Assembly (NCBI RefSeq): GCF_014193425.1
Contig: NZ_JACHZG010000001.1
Location: 1,674,001-1,738,000, forward strand
DNA from: Microlunatus antarcticus
GTDB taxonomy: Bacteria; Actinomycetota; Actinomycetes; Propionibacteriales; Propionibacteriaceae
Direction: 5' to 3'
DNA length: 64,000 bases
Each line of letters opens with the position of its first letter. Positions within the stretch are counted from its first letter, which is position 1. The translations under genes and the position numbers were made by a program. Below, piece by piece: positions 47,881-61,834 of this stretch. The notes under the pieces were generated by a model. It was not told where the DNA came from and did not search any database. It saw nothing but the letters and a program-made list of their open reading frames with translations.

Positions 47881-50553
47881 GTGCCCGTCGGAACCGCTTC
47901 TGTGGAGCTGGACGAGGACCCGCCCGGCTACCCGCGGGGGTGGGAGGCCGACGTCCTGCTCGCGGACGGCGGCACGGCGCGCCTGCGCCCGATCCGGCCG
48001 TCGGACGCCGCTCTGCTCGTCGCCTTCTACGACCGGGTGTCGCCGGAGTCGAAGTACCTGCGGTTCTTCGCCCCCTACCCGCGGCTGAGCCGGCGTGACG
48101 TCAAGCGCTTCACCGAGGTGGACTACGTCGACCGGGTGGCGCTGATCCTGACGCTGGGCGGCGAGATGATCGGCGTCGGGCGCTGGGACCGGCTGGAGGA
48201 GGGCTCGAGGTCGGGCAAGGCGGAGATCGCCTTCCTCGTCGAGGACGCCCACCAGGGCCGCGGCGTCGCGCAGCTCCTGCTCGAGCACCTGGCCGAGGCC
48301 GCCCGGGAACGGGGCATCACCGGCTTCGTGGCCGAGGTCCTGCCCGAGAACCGGCGGATGGCCCAGGTCTTCGCCGACGCCGGCTACCGCGTGCGCAAGG
48401 GCGTGGAGGACGGCGTGCTGGTCGTCGAGTTCCCGATCCTGCCGACCGACACCTCTGTGGGCGTCATGGAACGTCGCGAGCACCGGGCGGAGTCCGCCTC
48501 CGTACGCCGTCTGCTGAGCCCGGAGCGGGTCGTCGTCTACGGCAAGGGCGACCGCGTGCGCGGGGTCGTCGACTCGATGCTGCGCGGCGGGTTCCGCGGC
48601 GAGGTGCTGGCGGTCACCTCCGACGGCTCCGACGTCCCCGGGGTCGCGAACGCCCCCTCGATCGGCGAGGTGCCCGGGAACCTCGACCTCGCCGTCGTCT
48701 CCATCGGGATCGCCGACCTGGGCTCGGTCGTCATCGACACGGCGCACAAGGGCGCCCACGGGCTCGTCGTGCTCACCGGCTCGGACTTCGGGCCGCAGGA
48801 GAACCGGCTGCTCGTCCAGCTCGCCCGGGCGTACGGGGTGCGTGCGCTCGGCCCCGACGCGCTCGGCCTGATCAACACGCGGCTGGGCGCGGAGATGAAC
48901 GCGACGCCGGGCCCGATGCCGCGGACCGGCGCGGTGGGGCTGTTCTGCCAGTCCGCGGCGACCGGTGTCAGCCTGCTGAACGCGACGCTGCGCCACGACA
49001 TCGGGCTGAGCTCCTTCGTGTCGACCGGCGACTACGCCGACGTCACCGCCAACGACGTCCTGCAGTACTGGGAGGACGACGACGACACCCGGGTCTGCCT
49101 GATGTCGCTCGACTCCATCGGCAACCCGCGCAAGTTCTCCCGGATCAGCCGTCGCCTCGCCCGCCGCAAGCCCGTCGTGGCCTTCGCGCCCGGCCGGACG
49201 CACCGCTCCGAGCACCTCGGGGTGCGGGGCGGGCTCGGGCACGCCCCGGACGAGGCGATCGACGCGCTCTTCCGTCAGGCCGGGATCATGGTCACCCACC
49301 GCCGGAACGCGATGTTCGACATCGCCAAGATCGCGGCGCGGCAGCCGCTGCCGGCCGGGGAGCGTGTCCGGGTGATCGCGAACTCCACGACCCTGGCCGC
49401 CCAGCTCACGACGAGCGCGGCCGCCGCGGGCCTGCTGGTCGAGCAGCCCGCGGTCGTCCTGCCCGCGCAGTCGTCGCCCGCCGCGTTCAGCGCCGCCGCG
49501 CAGCAGGCGCTCGCGGAGGAGACCTGCGACTCGGTCCTGTGCGCCGCGGTGAACGTCTACTCCGAGGGCGTCGACCACGTCATCGCCGCGCTCGACGGCG
49601 TCGCCCGGCACGCGTCGAAGCCCCTGGTCGGGGTGTTCCTCGACTTCAACGAGCCGCTGACCTCGATGGGCCCCGACGAGCGCGGGGCGCTGCCGCGCTT
49701 CGACTCCGGGGTCGACGCCGTCCGGGCGCTGGCGGCCGTGACGGCCCACGCCCGGTGGCGCGACCGCGACCCGGGTGCGGTGCCGATGCTGGAGCTCGAC
49801 CGGGACCGCGCCCGCCGCCTCATCAACCAGGTGCTGCGGGGCACACCGCAGGGCCGCGAGCTCACCGGGGACGAGGCGACCGAGCTGCTGGCCGCGTACG
49901 GGATCGAGCTCGTGCGCCGCTACTACGTCACCAGCCTGGACGAGGCCTGCCGGGTGGCCGACTCCCTCGGCTGGGACGTCGTGCTCAAGGCGACGTCGTT
50001 GAGCGTGGGGGGACGGCCCGACCACGCCGGCGTCTACCGCAACATCGACGACCCCGAGGACATGGCGCAGGCCTGGGACGACCTGTACGAGCTGCTCGTC
50101 GCCCTCGGCCTCGGGACCGACGACGCCCTCAGCGGGGCGGAGCCCGTCGTGCAGGTGATGGCGCCGCCCGGCGTCGCGCTGGTGGTGACGAGCCGCGAGG
50201 ACGCCGCGTTCGGCCCGATCGTCTCGCTCGGTCTGGAGGGCGTCGCCTCGCAGCTCCTCGGCGACACGGTCTACCGCGTGCCGCCGCTGACCGACGTGGA
50301 CGCCGGGGCGATGGTCCGCGACCTCCGGACCGCACCGGTGCTGTTCGGGCGCAACGACAGCCCGGGCGTCGACATCGGCCGGGTGGAGGACCTGCTGCAC
50401 CGCGTCGCGCAGCTCGCCGACGAGCACCCGCAGCTGGCCTCGGTCAGCCTCAGCCCGGTCATCGCGTCGACGGGGTCGCTCGCCGTGCTGGGTGCGCGCA
50501 TCCACATCGCGCCCACGGCCGACCGCCGAGACCCGCTGGCCCGGACGCTGTGA
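47881..50553 (+). CDS. GNAT acetyltransferase fused to an ADP-forming acyl-CoA synthetase-like region (Pat-type lysine acetyltransferase)
   Basis: An 890-residue protein. Residues about 20-190 form a GNAT domain with acetyl-CoA-binding VEDAHQGRGVAQLLLEHL. Residues 205-680 are CoA-binding and CoA-ligase units (SPERVVVYGKGD; FCQSAATGVSLLN). Residues 690-885 form an ATP-grasp fold (TGDEATELLAAYGIELV). In active ADP-forming acyl-CoA synthetases a catalytic His lies in an SHTGALAG-type loop. Aligning on DALFRQAG, that position is Arg here, so synthetase activity is probably lost and the module senses acyl-CoA. The N-terminal GNAT order resembles Streptomyces PatA, which acetylates acetyl-CoA synthetase. 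Confidence 0.82.
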   Translation: MPVGTASVELDEDPPGYPRGWEADVLLADGGTARLRPIRPSDAALLVAFYDRVSPESKYLRFFAPYPRLSRRDVKRFTEVDYVDRVALILTLGGEMIGVGRWDRLEEGSRSGKAEIAFLVEDAHQGRGVAQLLLEHLAEAARERGITGFVAEVLPENRRMAQVFADAGYRVRKGVEDGVLVVEFPILPTDTSVGVMERREHRAESASVRRLLSPERVVVYGKGDRVRGVVDSMLRGGFRGEVLAVTSDGSDVPGVANAPSIGEVPGNLDLAVVSIGIADLGSVVIDTAHKGAHGLVVLTGSDFGPQENRLLVQLARAYGVRALGPDALGLINTRLGAEMNATPGPMPRTGAVGLFCQSAATGVSLLNATLRHDIGLSSFVSTGDYADVTANDVLQYWEDDDDTRVCLMSLDSIGNPRKFSRISRRLARRKPVVAFAPGRTHRSEHLGVRGGLGHAPDEAIDALFRQAGIMVTHRRNAMFDIAKIAARQPLPAGERVRVIANSTTLAAQLTTSAAAAGLLVEQPAVVLPAQSSPAAFSAAAQQALAEETCDSVLCAAVNVYSEGVDHVIAALDGVARHASKPLVGVFLDFNEPLTSMGPDERGALPRFDSGVDAVRALAAVTAHARWRDRDPGAVPMLELDRDRARRLINQVLRGTPQGRELTGDEATELLAAYGIELVRRYYVTSLDEACRVADSLGWDVVLKATSLSVGGRPDHAGVYRNIDDPEDMAQAWDDLYELLVALGLGTDDALSGAEPVVQVMAPPGVALVVTSREDAAFGPIVSLGLEGVASQLLGDTVYRVPPLTDVDAGAMVRDLRTAPVLFGRNDSPGVDIGRVEDLLHRVAQLADEHPQLASVSLSPVIASTGSLAVLGARIHIAPTADRRDPLARTL

Positions 50554-50640: not shown

Positions 50641-51420
50641 ATGACGGCAGGTAGAGGGCCCTCGGGCGAGGACCGGTCCGTGGACGAGCTGGCGGGCGAG
50701 GACAGCAGGCTCGCCGACAGCGTCAGCGCCCTGTCCTCCCTGGGCTCGCACACCATGCCGCTGCGTGAGCTCCTCACCCGGGTCGCCGGCTACGCCGTGA
50801 ACGCGATCCCGGGCGCCGACGGGGCGGGGCTCACCCTGATCGAGGACGACCGGGCCGACACCATCGTGGCGACCGCCGCCTTCGTCTCCGACGTCGACGA
50901 CGTGCAGTACGGGCTGGGGGACGGGCCCTGCATCATGGCGGCCCGCGAGGGCCGCACGGTGATGTCCGGCTCGCTCGAGGACGAGCCGCGCTGGGGTGCC
51001 TTCGGTGGTCGGGTGGCGGCCCTCGGCGTGCACAGCGTGGTGTCGCTGCCGCTGCGGCTCGGTGTTGACGTGCTGGGCGCCATGAACGTGTACGCGCGGG
51101 CCCACGACGCCTTCGACGCTCGCGCCGCCGAGCTCGGCGAGGCGTTCGCGGCCCCGGCTGCGGTCGCGGTCCAGCACGCGCAGGTGGTGGAGCAGACGCG
51201 GCGTCTCGCGGAGGAGCTGCTGGCCTCGCTGGAGACGCGGGCGTCGATCGAGCAGGCGGTGGGGGTGCTGATGGCGCGCGAGGGCATCGACGTCGACGAG
51301 GCCCGTGCCATGCTCGACGTGCTGGCGCACGAGCGCGGCGCGCCGCTCGGGGTGCTCGCGCGGGCCCTCCTCGCCGACGCCGTCCGGCGTGGGGCCGAGG
51401 GCAACGCCAGCGATCGGTGA
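50641..51420 (+). CDS. GAF-ANTAR regulator 1
   Basis: A 259-residue protein from ATG 50641, preceded by GAGGATGAG. A full GAF domain covers about residues 45-175 (AVNAIPGADGAGLTLIEDDRADTIVATAAF, VQYGLGDGPCIMAAREGRTV, VVSLPLRLGVDVLGAMNVYA). A C-terminal ANTAR domain covers 195-250 (ASIEQAVGVLMAREGIDVDEARAMLDVLAHERG). ANTAR domains bind RNA hairpins and prevent transcription termination. It is the first of five consecutive ANTAR genes and overlaps no other gene. Confidence 0.87.
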   Translation: MTAGRGPSGEDRSVDELAGEDSRLADSVSALSSLGSHTMPLRELLTRVAGYAVNAIPGADGAGLTLIEDDRADTIVATAAFVSDVDDVQYGLGDGPCIMAAREGRTVMSGSLEDEPRWGAFGGRVAALGVHSVVSLPLRLGVDVLGAMNVYARAHDAFDARAAELGEAFAAPAAVAVQHAQVVEQTRRLAEELLASLETRASIEQAVGVLMAREGIDVDEARAMLDVLAHERGAPLGVLARALLADAVRRGAEGNASDR

Positions 51421-51505
51421 GCGTTGGCGTATCCTCGGGGCCAACGACGGCCGCACGCTGGTCCGTAAGGCCGTCGGCACCCTGTCAGCACCTCAGCTCG
51501 GGCAG

Positions 51506-52198
51506 GTGACCAATCTGGTGGACGGATCCGCCGCCGGAGTCGTCGTGGAGCTGTCTGCTCAGCTGGTCGACCAGCTCGCGCTGGTCGCCCTGGGGGACGC
51601 ACGCGACGGGGACGGCCTCGTCTCCGACCTCGACGCCCTGGTGACGACGCTGCACGGGGCCGTGCCGAGCTTTCTGGGGCTCCGGCTGACCCTCGTCCAC
51701 AGCGGCCTCCCCGTCCAGGTGACGTCCCTGCTCCCCGGGTGGACCGACGGCGCGGCTGTCACGTCGCTCCGGCTGGCGCTCGCCCCGGTCTCGCGGGCCT
51801 TCGAGGCGGGCGGGGCCCTGGTTCTGTGGAGCGGCGTGCCCGGCTCGCTGGTCGACCTGGCCGCCGACCTGGGCTACGTGGTCGCGCGGGGCGGGAACGA
51901 CGCCGGGTCACCGGCGGTGGAGCTGGACCGGCACCTGCCGCCGAGCGGCATCACCTCGGGCGTCGAGGGCCTCGACGAGCTGGCGACGGTCCAACGCGCA
52001 GCCGGTCTGCTGATCTCCGCGGGCCACGACCCGGTCGCGGCCCACGAGACGCTCCGCGTCGGGGCCGCCGACCACGGCTCCAGCACGTACGAGTGGGCGG
52101 TAAGGCTGCTCGACGAGCACCGGGCCGCCCGACGCAGACCAGAGAGTGCCGGCCGCTCGCGTCCCGGCCCAGAAGGAGGGGACGACCATGACGTCTGA
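51506..52198 (+). CDS. Short-GAF ANTAR-like regulator 2
   Basis: The reading frame is open from before 51420, but no ATG occurs; GTG 51506 or GTG 51518 are the usable starts, so the N-terminus is uncertain. The protein (about 230 residues) has a reduced GAF-like sensor, with DALVTTLHGAVPSFLGLRLTLV and SLRLALAPVSRAFEAGGALVL matching, respectively, the beginning and end of the GAF domain in gene 1. A C-terminal ANTAR-like segment is LATVQRAAGLLISAGHDPVAAHETLRVGA. The end overlaps the next gene by 11 bases. Degeneration of ANTAR motifs makes RNA binding less certain. Confidence 0.6.
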   Translation: MTNLVDGSAAGVVVELSAQLVDQLALVALGDARDGDGLVSDLDALVTTLHGAVPSFLGLRLTLVHSGLPVQVTSLLPGWTDGAAVTSLRLALAPVSRAFEAGGALVLWSGVPGSLVDLAADLGYVVARGGNDAGSPAVELDRHLPPSGITSGVEGLDELATVQRAAGLLISAGHDPVAAHETLRVGAADHGSSTYEWAVRLLDEHRAARRRPESAGRSRPGPEGGDDHDV

Positions 52199-52958
52199 GG
52201 AGCTGAACCCGGAGTCGCGCTCGAGCGACCAGCGCGAGGCGGAGGACGACGACCTGGCCGCGAGTCTGCGCGGGCTCTCGGTGCTCTCCGCCGGAGCCCT
52301 GCCGCTCGAGGAGATGCTCACGCGTGTCGCCCGGTACGCGGTGCAGGCCATCCCCGGTGCCGACGGGGCCGGGCTCACCCTCATCGAGCACCACCGCGCG
52401 GACACGATCGTCATGACGGCGGAGTTCGTCGCCGAGGTCGACGCGGTGCAGTACGGCATCGGCGAGGGCCCCTGCATCAGCGCGGCGCGCGACGGGGTCA
52501 CCGTGATGTCGGGCTCGCTCGGCGGCGACACCCGCTGGCCCCGCTTCGGCGGGCGCATCGCGCGCATGGGCGTGCACAGCGCGCTGTCGCTCCCGCTCAT
52601 CGCCAGCGACGAGGTCGTCGGGGCCATGAACATCTACGCCCACGCCAAGCACGTCTTCGACGAGCGCGCCGCGGCGCTGGGCGAGCTCTTCGCCGTCCCG
52701 GCCGCGGTCACGGTGCAGAACGCCCGGGTCCTCGAGGACGCCCGGCGCCTCGCCGAACGGCTCCAGAGCGCGCTCGACGAGCGGATGGTCGTGGAGCGCG
52801 CGGTGGGGATCGTGATGAGCCGGTCGGGCATCGACGAGGACGAGGCGCTCGCCCGGCTGACGCGGCTGAGCCAGCACGAGCACGTCAAGCTCGTCGAGGT
52901 CGCCCGCACGCTCGTCGACGAGGCCGTCCGGAGGGCCCGGGCGGCACCTCACGGCTGA
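52188..52958 (+). CDS. GAF-ANTAR regulator 3
   Basis: A 256-residue protein with the excellent ribosome binding site AAGGAGGGG before ATG 52188. It is a close paralogue of gene 1: GAF (AIPGADGAGLTLIEHHRADTIVMTAEF, YGIGEGPCISAARDGVTVMSG, ALSLPLIASDEVVGAMNIYAHAKHVFD) and ANTAR (MVVERAVGIVMSRSGIDEDEALARLTRLSQHEHVKL). Canonical ANTAR residues are present, so it can be expected to bind an RNA target. It overlaps gene 2 by 11 bases, so they are co-translated. Confidence 0.87.
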   Translation: MTSEELNPESRSSDQREAEDDDLAASLRGLSVLSAGALPLEEMLTRVARYAVQAIPGADGAGLTLIEHHRADTIVMTAEFVAEVDAVQYGIGEGPCISAARDGVTVMSGSLGGDTRWPRFGGRIARMGVHSALSLPLIASDEVVGAMNIYAHAKHVFDERAAALGELFAVPAAVTVQNARVLEDARRLAERLQSALDERMVVERAVGIVMSRSGIDEDEALARLTRLSQHEHVKLVEVARTLVDEAVRRARAAPHG

Positions 52959-53197
52959 GCGGCCGGGCCCGTACGGCTGCCTCCCTTCGCTGCCGGGGGG
53001 CGGCGGGGATGCAGTCGGCGCGGCGGTATTTGACGGATCGCGGTGGAAATAGCAGGCTGACGCTGCGTGCTTGCCCACGCCGCGGGCTCGGGGGAGCGTC
53101 CTGACGCTCCTGCGACGAGATCCCGCCCGAGGAAGGCAGCCGTGGACGCCGTTGCACGTCGCACCACCGTCCGGTCATCGCGCCGCGGGGCCCGGCC
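52959..53197. promoter_or_regulatory. Intergenic promoter and leader before the fourth ANTAR gene
   Basis: This 239-base gap contains TTGACG at 53031-53036 (a -35-like hexamer) and, after a short spacer, TAGCAG (53052-53057) as a weak -10 candidate. A hairpin, GGAGCGT-CCTG-ACGCTCC, lies at about 53094-53111, and CCCGAGG follows it, as in the leaders at 53851 and 54596. The layout (promoter, hairpin, long leader) matches the other two ANTAR-region leaders in plan, not in exact sequence. Confidence 0.45.
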
Positions 53198-53785
53198 GTG
53201 ACGGCCCGTGCGCCGGACGCGGCGCAGGCCCGGTTCTCGGCCGTGCTGCTCGCCGACCTCGCGGACTGGAGCGTGCAGCTCCACGCGCGGAGCTTCACCC
53301 GGGTGTCGGTCGAGATGCTGCTGCGCGACCTCCGCCGGTCGGTGCCGTCGGCCCTCGGCTACACCCTCGCGCTGGGCGACGCCGCCGACCTGGCGCGCGT
53401 CACGATCACGGTGGCCGACGAGAAGCTCCTGCCGGCGCAGGTCGGCAGCACCATCACCTTCGCCCTGCCGGTGGTGCAGGGCACGTCCGCCACCGCGACG
53501 TTCTACGCCGCCGAGCAGCAGGCGTTCGACGAGCTCGCGGTGCTCCTCGCGGGCAGCCCGGCCTGCGGCCCCGACCGGGTCCGTCTCGACGGCGCGCCCG
53601 CGACCGACGTCGAGCCGGGCGTCGACGGGCTCGCCGACCACACGAGGATCAACTACGCCATCGGGATCCTGCTCGCCCGGGGGCTGTCCTACGAGGAGTC
53701 CCAGCGCTACCTGCACCGGCTGGCGGACCACTTCCAGACGCTCGAGGCGGCGGCGGACCACCTGCTCACGGGCGTCGGCGACTGA
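53198..53785 (+). CDS. Short-GAF ANTAR-like regulator 4
   Basis: A 195-residue protein, GTG start. It lacks the middle of a GAF domain: VLLADLADWSVQLHARSFTRVSVEMLLRDLRRSVPSALGYTL leads directly to TFALPVVQGTSATATFYAAEQQAFDELA, the counterpart of the GAF C-terminal strands and helix. The ANTAR-like end is DHTRINYAIGILLARGLSYEESQRYLHRLADHF. The next gene is a clear paralogue (about half of residues identical by eye), so this is a tandem duplication. The RNA target is unknown. Confidence 0.68.
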   Translation: MTARAPDAAQARFSAVLLADLADWSVQLHARSFTRVSVEMLLRDLRRSVPSALGYTLALGDAADLARVTITVADEKLLPAQVGSTITFALPVVQGTSATATFYAAEQQAFDELAVLLAGSPACGPDRVRLDGAPATDVEPGVDGLADHTRINYAIGILLARGLSYEESQRYLHRLADHFQTLEAAADHLLTGVGD

Positions 53786-53825
53786 GGAGCGGGGCTACGG
53801 GCGCCGAGGCCTTGGCCGGTCCGCC

Positions 53826-53939
53826 TAGCCTTCTGGGACTGCTCCCGCAGTCCTCCCGAGGCGTGGCCGCCGTACGCAGCACCGTGGCCCGACGCCGATC
53901 GGTCCCACCCCGGGCGCACCGCTCCGACAGGCCTTCCCC
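53826..53939 (+). promoter_or_regulatory. Promoter and hairpin leader of ANTAR gene 5
   Basis: TAGCCT (53826-53831) is a -10 box. The hairpin GGACTGC-TCCC-GCAGTCC (53836-53853) follows 4 bases later, so it is at the very 5' end of the mRNA. CTCCCGAGG comes next and the leader runs about 100 bases to the GTG at 53940, ending in CGCTCCGACAGGCC. The same ordered elements are found before the desaturase gene at 54567-54672. Confidence 0.55.
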
Positions 53940-54527
53940 GTGACCCCGCGTCCGCCGTCGTCGTCCTCGGCCCCGGCCCGGCTCGCCGCCGCGCTGCTCG
54001 CCGACCTCGGTGACTGGGGCGTCCACCTGGGGACCCGCAGCTTCACCCGGGTGGCGGTCGAGATGCTGCTGCGCGACCTCCGACGGATGGTCCCCTCGAC
54101 CCTCGGCTACACGCTCGTGGTCGTCGAGACCCTCGAGCTCCCCCAGGTCTCGATCACGGTCGCCGACGGCCCGCCGACGCCGGGGCAGGTGGGCGCCAGC
54201 CTCGGCTTCGACCTGCCGGTCGCGCGGGGTGCGTCGGCCGTCGCCACCTTCTTCGCCCGCGAGCAGGGCGCCTTCGACCGGCTCGCCGACCTGCTCGGGG
54301 CAGGCCTCGGGACCGGCGGCGTCCGGCTTGCGGGCAGGTCCGTCGAGGTGCTGACGCCCGGTGTCCACGGCCTGGCCGACCACACCACGGTGAACTACGC
54401 GATCGGGATCCTGCTCGAGCGGGGTCTGTCCTTCGACGAGGCGCGGCGCTACCTCGACCGGCTGGCCGGGCGCCTCGGCACGCTCCCCGGCGCCGCCGAC
54501 CACGTCCTCGCCGGCTTCACGGTCTGA
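53940..54527 (+). CDS. Short-GAF ANTAR-like regulator 5
   Basis: A 195-residue paralogue of the preceding gene. It carries the same signature SFTRVAVEMLLRDLRRMVPSTLGYTL, followed by GASLGFDLPVARGASAVATFFAREQGAFDRLADLL and the ANTAR-like DHTTVNYAIGILLERGLSFDEARRYLDRLAGRL. It begins with a low-complexity Pro/Ser/Ala stretch. GTG start at 53940. The desaturase gene follows after 124 bases, with a similar leader. It may be the direct regulator of the desaturase. Confidence 0.68.
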   Translation: MTPRPPSSSSAPARLAAALLADLGDWGVHLGTRSFTRVAVEMLLRDLRRMVPSTLGYTLVVVETLELPQVSITVADGPPTPGQVGASLGFDLPVARGASAVATFFAREQGAFDRLADLLGAGLGTGGVRLAGRSVEVLTPGVHGLADHTTVNYAIGILLERGLSFDEARRYLDRLAGRLGTLPGAADHVLAGFTV

Positions 54528-54566
54528 GGCGCTCGCGTCGCACCGGGCGTTCTTGCTGCGCTCCTA

Positions 54567-54672
54567 TAGCCTCGCCGGACTGCTCTCGCAGTCGTCCTGA
54601 GGCAGGGCCCCCGTCCGACCGCGGTCCGCGTCGCTCGGCTCCTCTCCAGGTATGTCGCTCCGACAGGCCCCT
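54567..54672 (+). promoter_or_regulatory. Promoter and hairpin leader of the desaturase gene
   Basis: TATAGCCT (54565-54572) contains a -10 box TAGCCT. GGACTGC-TCTC-GCAGTC (54577-54593) is a hairpin of nearly the same sequence as at 53836. CCTGAGG follows, then CGCTCCGACAGGCC at 54656-54669, shared with the preceding leader. The start is ATG 54652 or GTG 54673; the alignment with leader 5 places the latter at the same position. A possible ANTAR-type leader; no canonical AxxGxx dual hexaloop is evident. Confidence 0.55.
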
Positions 54673-55776
54673 GTGACCTCCCTCGCCATCCCCCCTGCCC
54701 CCTCGTCGTCCCGCGCCGGCGACCGAGCCGCCCGGACGACCAGCAGCTTCACCGCGCTGACGCGCCAGGTGCACGAGCTCGGTCTGATGCGCCGCCGCTA
54801 CGGCTACTACTGGACCAAGCTGGTCGGTGCCACCGTGCTCCTCGCCGCCTGGGCCGTGGGCTTCGTCCACCTCGGGGACACCTGGTGGCAGCTGGCGTCG
54901 GCGGTCGTGCTCGCCGTGCTCGTCACGCAGGTGGCGTTCCTGGGCCACGACGCCGCGCACCGCCAGATCTTCGTCTCCGGGCGCTGGAACGACTGGGCCA
55001 GCCTCGTCGTGGCCGACCTGTTCGTGGGGATCAGCTACGGCTGGTGGCAGAGCAAGCACACCCGGCACCACGCCAACCCGAACAAGGACGGCTACGACCC
55101 CGACATCGCGCTGGGGGCGGTGGCCATCACGCCGACGCAGGCGAACCGGCACCAGAGCCCGGTGCTGCGCTGGCTGGTCGCCCACCAGGGCTGGTACTTC
55201 TTCCCGCTGCTGCTCCTGGAGGGCCTGTCCCTGCACGTGGAGGCGGTCAAGCGCGTGACGAGCCGTACGCCGGTCCAGCGCCGCTGGGTCGAGGCGGCCT
55301 TCCTCCTCGTGCGCCTGGGCGGGCTGCTCGCCCTCGTCCTCGTCGTCCTGCCGCTGCCCAAGGCCGCCGCGTTCCTGGGCGTCGAGCTCGGGGTCTTCGG
55401 GCTCTACATGGGCGCCACGTTCGCCCCGAACCACATCGGCATGCCCCTGGTCTCGCCGCGGCTCAAGCTCGACTTCCTGCGGCGCCAGGTGCTGACCAGC
55501 CGCAACATCAGCGGCGGCCGCTGGGTGTCGGTCCTGATGGGCGGGCTGAACCACCAGGTCGAGCACCACCTCTTCCCGTCCATGGCCCGTCCGCACCTGC
55601 GCCGGCTCGCCCCGCTGGTCGCCGCACACTGCGCGGCGGAAGGGGTCCCGTACACGCAGACGACGCTCCTGCAGAGCTACCGGCAGGTCGTCGTCTACCT
55701 GAACACGGTCGGGCTCAAGGGGCGCGACCCGTTCCTCTGCCCCCTCGTCGCGCAGCGGCGGGCGCTGCAGCCGTAG
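54652..55776 (+). CDS. Membrane fatty-acid desaturase
   Basis: A 374-residue protein (367 if GTG 54673 is used, which the shared leader favours). The three histidine boxes are complete: HDAAH (near residue 105), HTRHH (near 139) and HQVEHH (near 303), forming the di-iron site. Four predicted helices surround them. It inserts a cis double bond into a membrane lipid or acyl-CoA with O2 and reductant; the layout resembles DesA3-type acyl-CoA desaturases. Its leader is shared with the preceding ANTAR gene, so membrane fluidity may be the controlled output of the block. Confidence 0.85.
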   Translation: MSLRQAPVTSLAIPPAPSSSRAGDRAARTTSSFTALTRQVHELGLMRRRYGYYWTKLVGATVLLAAWAVGFVHLGDTWWQLASAVVLAVLVTQVAFLGHDAAHRQIFVSGRWNDWASLVVADLFVGISYGWWQSKHTRHHANPNKDGYDPDIALGAVAITPTQANRHQSPVLRWLVAHQGWYFFPLLLLEGLSLHVEAVKRVTSRTPVQRRWVEAAFLLVRLGGLLALVLVVLPLPKAAAFLGVELGVFGLYMGATFAPNHIGMPLVSPRLKLDFLRRQVLTSRNISGGRWVSVLMGGLNHQVEHHLFPSMARPHLRRLAPLVAAHCAAEGVPYTQTTLLQSYRQVVVYLNTVGLKGRDPFLCPLVAQRRALQP

Positions 55777-60304: not shown

Positions 60305-61834
60305 TCAGCCGGGCTTCGGTCCGCCGAACATGATCTCGTCCCAGCTCGGTACCGACGCCCGCTTGCGCCGGCCCGGCTTGCGCGAGGCGCCGGGGCTCGG
60401 GATCAGCGGTTCGGGGACGTCGTCGTCGGCGGGTGCCTCCGGCTCCGGGTCGGTCGTCGCCTCGGCCTCGGGCGCCACGAGCTCGGGACGCTCGCCCGGC
60501 GCGACCTCGTCGGCGGCGTCCTCGTCCTCTTGTTCCGGCGAGCCGGGCTCGGGCTCGGCCGGGACGAGGACGTCGGCGGCCGGCTCGAACTCGTGCTCGT
60601 CGACCACGGGCACCGCCGTGGCGTCGGAGAGCCCGGGGTAGACCCGGGGCGACTCCTCGGCGTAGCCGCCGAGCATGTCGTAGAGGGTGTCCAGCGCGGA
60701 ACGCGCCTCGTCCGCGTCGACGTCGCCGTCCGCGTCCTGCGCACCCGGGACCGAGTCGACCTCGACCTCGTCGACCTCGACCGTGAGACGGGTCAGGTGG
60801 CGGACGACCGCGATCGTGGGTTCCGCGGCCTCGTCGCGCCGGGCGATCAGCGTCGGCTCGTTCCGACCCGCGAAGGCGTCGTCATCCGACCCGTCCTCCG
60901 GACCGCCGCCCTCGGACCCGTCGGTCTCGTGGTCGTCGCTCTCGGGGTCGTCGGCCACGAGCTCGGCCAGCTCCTCGGCGCTGAGCTCGGCCGGCGGGGC
61001 GGCCTGCAGCACGGCGCCCAGCTCCTCGGCGATCGCCCGGACCATCTCCTGCGTCTCGGCCGCGGTCGCGCCCTCCTCGTCGTCGTCCGCGGCGGACCCG
61101 GCGGCCGAGCGCTCCACGTCCTCGTCGCCGGAGAGCTCACGGGTCGCCCGCACCAGGGCGAGCTCGTCGTCGCGGTCGTCCGACGCCGTCACGGGGGAGG
61201 GAGCCTCGCCGGCGAGCCAGCGGGCCTCGTCGTCCTCGGCCACGGAGAAGCGGCCCTGCGCGTCGAAGCGGAACTCGGCGCGCCGCGGCTCGCCCTGCAG
61301 CTCGTAGTCGGCGCTGAGCAGCCACTGCGAGTCGCCGACCTTCCAGGCGTCCCAGCTGACGTCGTCGCCGTCGACCCCCTGGGCCTGCAGCCGTTCGGCG
61401 ACCACGGAGCGCAGCGGGCGGTGGCCCGAGGCCTCCCCGCGGCGACGGACCGACGAGCCCAGGGCGGTCAGCGCCAGGTGCTCGCGCTCGGCCAGCACGG
61501 GCGCGGCGAAACGCTCGATGCGCTCGGCGTCCATCCCGGAACCGGCGACCACGTCCTCCAACGACTCACCGGCCCGGATCCGGGTCTGGATGTCGCGAGG
61601 GCTGAGGGGGGTGTCCATGGGCGTCTCCCGACGTCGGGGCGGGCGTCGTACGACGGCCGGTGGAGCAGGGGTGTCGACCTCGGTCGGTCGGTCCCCGCCC
61701 TGGGCCGGTCGGAGGACGGAGGGGGTGTCCGGGTCGGCGGGATCGAGGGCGACGGTGATCTCTTCGCCGTCCTCGGTCACCAGGACGACCGACGTGCCGT
61801 CGGCAGTCGGTCCCACCAGTCGCGCGGTGCGCAT
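60305..61834 (-). CDS. sepH: Septation protein SepH
   Basis: A 509-residue protein. Residues 1-165 are the DUF3071 domain with a helix-turn-helix (SPRDIQTRIRAGESLEDVVAGSGMDAERIERFA). The long middle is acidic and low-complexity, rich in Asp, Glu and Ala. The end RKPGRRKRASVPSWDEIMFGG is the conserved C-terminal motif of SepH. SepH stimulates FtsZ ring assembly in actinobacteria. It is divergent from the Mg-chelatase-type ATPase gene with a 147-base gap. Confidence 0.88.
   Translation of the reverse strand: MRTARLVGPTADGTSVVLVTEDGEEITVALDPADPDTPSVLRPAQGGDRPTEVDTPAPPAVVRRPPRRRETPMDTPLSPRDIQTRIRAGESLEDVVAGSGMDAERIERFAAPVLAEREHLALTALGSSVRRRGEASGHRPLRSVVAERLQAQGVDGDDVSWDAWKVGDSQWLLSADYELQGEPRRAEFRFDAQGRFSVAEDDEARWLAGEAPSPVTASDDRDDELALVRATRELSGDEDVERSAAGSAADDDEEGATAAETQEMVRAIAEELGAVLQAAPPAELSAEELAELVADDPESDDHETDGSEGGGPEDGSDDDAFAGRNEPTLIARRDEAAEPTIAVVRHLTRLTVEVDEVEVDSVPGAQDADGDVDADEARSALDTLYDMLGGYAEESPRVYPGLSDATAVPVVDEHEFEPAADVLVPAEPEPGSPEQEDEDAADEVAPGERPELVAPEAEATTDPEPEAPADDDVPEPLIPSPGASRKPGRRKRASVPSWDEIMFGGPKPG

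Follow-up and report, generated by a model that had tools for sequence, protein, structure and literature searches.

Why do five genes for ANTAR-type regulators stand directly before a gene for a membrane fatty-acid desaturase, and are they connected with it? The question is raised by a 64,000-nucleotide stretch of the Microlunatus antarcticus genome (contig NZ_JACHZG010000001.1, positions 1,674,001 to 1,738,000), referred to as a whole as the window. On its + strand the genes lie head to tail in the order GNAT/CoA-ligase fusion, A, B, C, D, E and membrane desaturase; the original prediction, made from the sequence alone, had placed five such genes on one strand ahead of a desaturase, and their coordinates are confirmed. 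The answer that we favor, and hold to be probable rather than assured, is that a GAF-ANTAR module with degenerate partners controls the desaturase through a hairpin in its leader. To our knowledge, most of the numerous actinobacterial GAF-ANTAR proteins have no known RNA target, and a conserved hairpin accompanying their genes is a concrete, small candidate for one. If true, such control would tie the GAF-ANTAR class to membrane unsaturation, extend ANTAR recognition beyond the dual hexaloop with A1 and G4, and point to a function for degenerate ANTAR partners.

ANTAR genes beside desaturases

The desaturase (54652..55776, + strand) belongs to Pfam family PF00487 (1.1e-38), and its motif histidines are invariant in the desaturase alignment. 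It starts at ATG 54652 or, from a by-eye comparison with relatives, at GTG 54673, and stops at 55776. A search of the genus returned 38 desaturase matches in 19 of 20 genomes, and the surroundings of the best 17 matches together with the window gave a sample of 18 loci. An ANTAR or short ANTAR-like gene lies within 3 kilobases (kb) of the desaturase at ten of the 18 (the window, L045, L046 with the short gene only, L047, L048, L049, L052, L055, L056 and L057), and no ANTAR gene was found within this distance at L050, L051, L053, L054, L058, L059, L060 and L064, among which L051 and L053 are short contigs. Homologues of gene C (63-80% identity) adjoin the desaturase in genomes G059, G088 and G135. 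Since the ANTAR gene may lie upstream or downstream on the same strand, or be convergent or divergent, the linkage reflects more than a shared operon.

Beyond the genus, a scan with the desaturase alignment (one genome per species) found at least 305 relatives, of which the best 80 loci were used; setting aside L065 and L067 from the Microlunatus group leaves 78 outside loci. In the flanks of these, 13 of 17 ANTAR domains fall within 2.5 kb of the desaturase, in nine loci (binomial p 2.8e-5, a value that treats paired genes as separate when they are not independent). The neighbors are mostly a conserved pair in which one member, here termed alpha, scores lower for ANTAR and the other, beta, is an ordinary GAF-ANTAR protein; some loci have beta alone. 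The evidence for linkage between ANTAR genes and desaturases is strong, and the comparison of neighborhoods, with ten of 18 loci in the genus and nine of 78 outside it, upholds the link that had been proposed from the window. L083 was considered as a linked locus and rejected, its neighbor being a response-regulator ANTAR protein, which we take to be PdtaR-like, rather than a GAF-ANTAR protein; its domain is among the four beyond 2.5 kb. In one Microbacterium (L148, 4675-7313), an alpha/beta pair directly adjoins a response-regulator ANTAR gene. The window's own genome also has a second desaturase (C1:103530-104603, 52% identical); the stretch fetched around it showed no ANTAR gene.

A leader hairpin accompanying GAF-ANTAR genes

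Reading of the desaturase leaders revealed a hairpin whose loop recurs and which, as judged by eye, often stands right after a TAnnnT box. In the wider family the loop has 8-9 nucleotides, reads C1-N-N-G4-A-C-C-Y(-Y) and is situated in the 5' leader of the desaturases. Across 35 hairpin rows, 87.6% of cells pair, the covariation score is 0.697 (at most 0.196 with the partner slid) and loop positions C1, G4, A5 and C7 are invariant, although the loop constancy and the pairing are partly there by construction, since the scan for desaturase rows fixed A5-C6-C7, accepted only C or T at position 1 and A or G at position 4, and asked for four or more of six pairs. A covariance model (R1) was trained on ten ANTAR-linked leaders from the same loop-pattern scan, leaving out two linked leaders with 8-nucleotide loops (L083, L087). 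Over 98 loci R1 gives 28 matches of at least 20 bits, 20 in desaturase leaders and eight elsewhere; once the ten training leaders are subtracted, 10 of 18 are in desaturase leaders. Whole-genome ranking with a retrained model, R2, is largely circular, many of those leaders being in its training set, and R1 was used for the tests.

The hairpin is also found beside ANTAR pairs outside the training set. Twenty alpha/beta pairs were hand-picked from genomes with a pair outside the desaturase flanks (leaving out those of G235, G239 and G256), and R1 places a hairpin of 17-28 bits near 11 of them (L145, L148-L150, L152, L153, L156, L157, L159, L161 and L164). The hairpin is within 0.5 kb of beta in ten of these; that of L149 is about 1.6 kb from the pair, ahead of a small open reading frame and a second desaturase, which explains one apparent exception, L138. 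At eight of the 11 the hairpin precedes small open reading frames of about 110-120 codons that resemble one another; in L156 it precedes a DUF7882 protein, and no small frame of this type was recognized after the hairpin in L164. Likewise, loci chosen by the beta protein alone are rich in hairpins. Beta occurs at 1e-45 in 98 of 391 genomes of the window's order, and 20 of 30 loci drawn from these 98 genomes carry R1 matches of at least 15 bits (21 matches, compared with about 5.5 predicted from the off-leader density of 90 R1 matches in 1.79 megabases). The hairpin lies in a desaturase leader at eight loci (L201, L203, L207 twice, L208, L209, L217, L222 and L224), before an alpha-type gene at three (L197 and, on the other strand from the beta used as anchor, L200 and L216) and, as read from translations, before sigma-like genes (L211, L223) and a small membrane-protein gene (L214); the match in L196 is inside an alpha coding gene, and those in L195, L205, L210, L213 and L220 have no assigned gene. 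At the beta-anchored loci a strict descriptor finds 12 matches, whereas control flanks predict 3.2 and 100 shuffles average 1.83, with no shuffle exceeding 6.

The hairpin and GAF-ANTAR genes also co-occur across genomes. None of the 78 genomes tested lacks an ANTAR protein; 25 have the hairpin and at least two ANTAR proteins, one the hairpin only, 21 the ANTAR proteins only and 31 neither (Fisher 1.2e-6), under a final hairpin rule that was fixed with both the leader sequences and the ANTAR counts already in view, and that leaves out 8-nucleotide loops (such as those of L078, L087 and L139, counted as hairpin-less). The first 50 genomes were chosen by by-eye hairpin class, and the other 28 make up the remainder of the 80 loci once L065 and L067 are set aside. 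The same four classes hold 23, 1, 9 and 28 of 61 Microbacteriaceae (Fisher 2.7e-8), and omission of the eight training genomes gives 6e-5 (all) and 2.4e-6 (Microbacteriaceae).

Several results weigh against the hairpin as an ANTAR target. On the tree there are about seven supported independent contrasts, of which 4.6 run in the same direction and 0.1 in the opposite one (median p 0.06), or six without the training genomes (3.6 same, 0.1 opposite, p 0.125); there the co-occurrence is suggestive, not proof. At the desaturase examined, the 21 genomes with extra ANTAR proteins have no hairpin that satisfies the rule, and L097 has the hairpin without an extra ANTAR protein. No adjoining R1 match was found at nine of the 20 alpha/beta pairs, a loose descriptor, with 32 matches at the beta-anchored loci, discriminates far less well (control flanks predict 22 and shuffles give 15.7), and in 53 of 58 whole genomes, with and without the pair, R2 also matches elsewhere. 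In the window, R1 has no match in the desaturase leader (54528-54672) at E<=10, and its best match, at 60752, runs antisense within a coding gene and was discarded; the genome has no beta-type protein at 1e-45, shuffled versions of the two leaders fold just as well (z 0.17 and -0.12), and the window's own hairpin has one of five pairs compensated among eight sequences, so a DNA operator is possible there. Lacking both an R1 leader match and a beta protein, the window is not a member of the wider system by the hairpin test and is better described as its divergent relative.

The window leader and alternative explanations

What would be the target in the window is a different hairpin, suggested by its position and by its duplication. 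In the desaturase leader (54528..54672, + strand), TAGCCT (54567-54572) is followed by the hairpin GACTGC-TCTC-GCAGTC (54578-54593). The leader between D and E (53786..53939, + strand) is a duplicate, with TAGCCT at 53826-53831 and GACTGC-TCCC-GCAGTC at 53837-53852. Genes D and E are themselves a tandem duplication (59% identical), and the copy includes a 51-nucleotide piece of the following leader (78% identity); thus the downstream leader was copied along with the gene, and a common leader containing one hairpin precedes both E and the desaturase. By eye, CTGC-N4-GCAG after TAGCCT is common to L046, L047, L048, L051, L052 and L053. A C homologue adjoins the desaturase in L047, L048 and L052 and a short ANTAR-like gene in L046; neither was seen beside it in the short contigs L051 and L053.

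Exact copies of the pattern in the window's genome number two, both at this locus, and up to two mismatches give 18 matches compared with 24 for a control pattern. The whole window leader, used as a query against relatives, gives matches that are weak and scattered; outside the window's genome the best reaches 1e-4. Rfam has nothing convincing in the window region (one microRNA match) and nothing at gathering scores in the desaturase leaders of seven relatives, and a simple scan of the window region found neither intrinsic terminators nor sigma-70 promoters (0.3 and 0.1 expected). Canonical dual A1/G4 hexaloops (linker 2-25) are present in one of 23 linked leaders, compared with 1.1 in shuffles, and in eight of 79 others, compared with 5.25; the six window stretches scanned have none. 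The leader between D and E contains an alternative hexaloop hairpin, TGGG-ACTGCT-CCCG (53834-53847, A1 and G4), which overlaps the main hairpin; the hexaloop scan gave none in the desaturase leader. The RNA-level control of the original prediction is supported by the desaturase-leader hairpin that accompanies GAF-ANTAR genes; dual hexaloops of the canonical type show no enrichment.

Three other explanations have to be weighed. In the window, CTGC-N4-GCAG after TAGCCT could instead be an operator in the DNA, lying at the transcription start and recognized by some repressor, with the ANTAR proteins acting elsewhere. Both of its arms are conserved in sequence, and other Microlunatus-group desaturase leaders carry different palindromes at a similar place (L045, L049 and L050, by eye); however, none of the six genes A to E and desaturase looks like a DNA-binding repressor by Pfam, the outer pair changes between A-U and G-C in step, and the alpha/beta relatives carry a clear RNA-type hairpin in their leaders. 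We therefore consider an operator unlikely, if the most serious of the three. The second explanation turns on the ribosome site. In 34 leaders, the loop and 3' arm pair better with their own ribosome site (mean -14.28 compared with -12.71 kcal/mol, 2 of 10000 permutations), with little such pairing in several (L093, L098, L107, L119 and L142). This complementarity would suit a hairpin that works as a self-contained RNA switch (say, a thermosensor whose loop pairs with the ribosome site), controlling the desaturase with no protein and having ANTAR genes as neighbors for another reason; a desaturase is a natural cold-response gene, and at some hairpin-bearing loci the ANTAR pair is far away. That reading is improbable given the co-occurrence of the hairpin with GAF-ANTAR genes and its presence ahead of small open reading frames and of alpha-type, sigma-like and small membrane-protein genes beside the pair. 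Mere neighborhood, in which abundant GAF-ANTAR genes gather with a desaturase in a flexible region, can draw on the genome's several ANTAR matches in another cluster and on an ANTAR cluster beside a CoA-ligase gene in G088 with no desaturase in the fetched stretch (L062), but it is already disfavored, and very improbable, since several families show ANTAR genes concentrated around the desaturase, whatever their orientation.

Putative degenerate partners and a proposed mechanism

The five regulators are not alike. At the curated Pfam cut-off for ANTAR (PF03861, 27.3 bits), only gene A (50641..51420, + strand; 45.6 bits, 6.2e-12; GAF_2 7e-17) and gene C (52188..52958, + strand; 64.1 bits, 9.9e-18), whose start overlaps the end of gene B, carry the domain. 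The short proteins B (51506..52198; 12.8 bits, E 0.1), D (53198..53785; 12.0 bits, 0.18) and E (53940..54527; 16.2 bits, 0.0091), all on the + strand, score below it and are by score ANTAR-like, not ANTAR members. The prediction of ANTAR segments in all five proteins thus stands for A and C, in which Pfam calls both GAF and ANTAR, and fails by profile for B, D and E, which have sub-threshold ANTAR scores only. An NCBIfam search of A to E gave no family above cut-off. The whole genome has 11 ANTAR matches at E<=0.001, eight of them over the cut-off, and A and C are two of these eight.

As a matter of descent, the prediction fares better. A relative of E in G135 (L065) reaches 1.6e-5 and 25.1 bits, just below the cut-off, and aligns to E at 1e-9, and relatives of E come after GAF-ANTAR genes in G088, G074 and G135. 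An AlphaFold2 model of E (18 rows) shows a C-terminal three-helix bundle with a predicted local distance difference test score (pLDDT) of 92-97 for the block at residues 151-190, and low confidence outside it (mean for the whole, 63.5). Foldseek with this model returned 23 weak matches, none at E<=0.001. Ranked by E-value, two RuvA chains come first (probability 0.12-0.13), followed by EutV with RNA and EutV, with AmiR and NasR lower; EutV, AmiR and NasR have E-values of about 1-10 and probabilities of 0.41-0.80, above RuvA, and AmiR and NasR align over 47-49 columns at 1.3-1.5 A. Model and matches together, the latter weak by themselves, point to an ANTAR-type bundle at the C-terminus of E. 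Because of the better-scoring relative and of a modeled bundle like those of EutV, AmiR and NasR, B, D and E look like degenerate ANTARs: five ANTAR-type regulators is right by descent, and three of them appear degenerate. Elsewhere in the genome (L006, C1:1507067-1510603), a 389-codon open reading frame joins a sub-threshold ANTAR segment to an E-like protein.

According to PMC8934654, the RNA-contact residues of EutV are R142, E160, Y164 and M172. Alignments mapped by eye indicate that all four are replaced in D and E (D/E: H/H, Y/F, Q/R and D/G) and that the contacts are largely replaced in B, D and E alike, with R142 and E160 kept in gene C, which has L at Y164. These replacements suggest that B, D and E are dimer partners or decoys, and not three more sensors. 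Of the proposal that several sensors compete for leaders, the leader part fits the duplicated leader that E and the desaturase share; competition among the sensors may be conjectured at most.

We propose that the cluster is a GAF-ANTAR module that would control the neighboring desaturase at the RNA level. The intact proteins A and C may sense a small ligand or redox state through their GAF domains and dimerize, in part with the degenerate B, D and E, which would tune or block RNA binding. Their target would be the 5'-terminal hairpin of the desaturase mRNA, and in the window the same leader precedes gene E, which would provide feedback. In the wider family, the 5' half of the loop resembles the G4 hexaloop read by ANTAR, and the 3' half could pair with the ribosome-binding site, so that protein binding would switch translation. 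According to PMC8934654, G4 is the base that EutV flips out of the hexaloop, and a single hexaloop can be bound by ANTAR dimers. Pairing with the ribosome site and a constant G4 suggest that ANTAR binding and ribosome-site pairing are mutually exclusive. As a mechanism, we hold a non-canonical variant of ANTAR control with moderate confidence. Its fullest form is more tentative, somewhat less likely than not: pairs of canonical and degenerate GAF-ANTAR proteins would act on a non-canonical single 5' hairpin (C-N-N-G4-A-C-C-Y) whose loop doubles as an anti-ribosome-site, switching desaturase translation, and the window would represent a branch that has diverged, with a hairpin of its own and, as decoys, three pseudo-ANTAR proteins, one of which lies under the enzyme's leader.

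Like antitermination by EutV, NasR and AmiR, which acts on dual or single hexaloops, the proposed system has the ANTAR three-helix fold and a 5' leader hairpin, with G4 in the loop in the wider family. It differs in having GAF rather than a REC or NIT-type sensor, a loop of 8-9 nucleotides starting with C rather than an A1 hexaloop, no enrichment of dual A1/G4 hexaloops and no U-tract terminator found in the window region. In PMC8164766, actinobacterial ANTAR-target RNAs consist of two stem-loops with hexanucleotide loops, in which one point variation is allowed, and translational control is reported for mycobacterial targets. Our hairpins share with them the position in the leader and the overlap with, or pairing to, the ribosome site, and differ in being single with a larger loop. 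The main text of PMC8164766 has no occurrence of desaturase, fatty, GAF, Microlunatus, Nocardioides or Kribbella. The passages of PMC11854999 describe Rhodococcus AlkB9 loci in which a membrane di-iron enzyme likewise adjoins a GAF/ANTAR gene (downstream of AlkB9); there the enzyme is an alkane monooxygenase, not a desaturase, and those passages describe no RNA element. Literature searches, with most subscription papers outside reach, found no report of a link between ANTAR proteins and desaturases.

Upstream of the cluster, the GNAT gene of the original prediction (47881..50553, + strand) is seen by Pfam to be a fusion of GNAT, CoA-binding/Succ-CoA-ligase and ATP-grasp domains, of the acetate-CoA-ligase/acetyltransferase type; a homologue (83% identical) precedes an ANTAR cluster in another species (L062). 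At the junction of genes A and B (51406-51446), two mutually exclusive stems, GCCAGCG..CGTTGGC and CGTTGGC..GCCAACG, can be drawn by eye, and a sub-threshold Guanidine-II match inside gene B (51604-51652, 22.3 bits, cut-off 32) is probably due to chance. A Guanidine-III riboswitch over the cut-off is present in the flank of a Microbacterium desaturase locus (L115, 268-332). Finally, a family of small proteins (by eye, about 110-120 amino acids) stands beside the alpha/beta pairs of L145, L148, L150, L152, L153, L157, L159 and L161; the three submitted to Pfam (L145, L150 and L157) had no match there.

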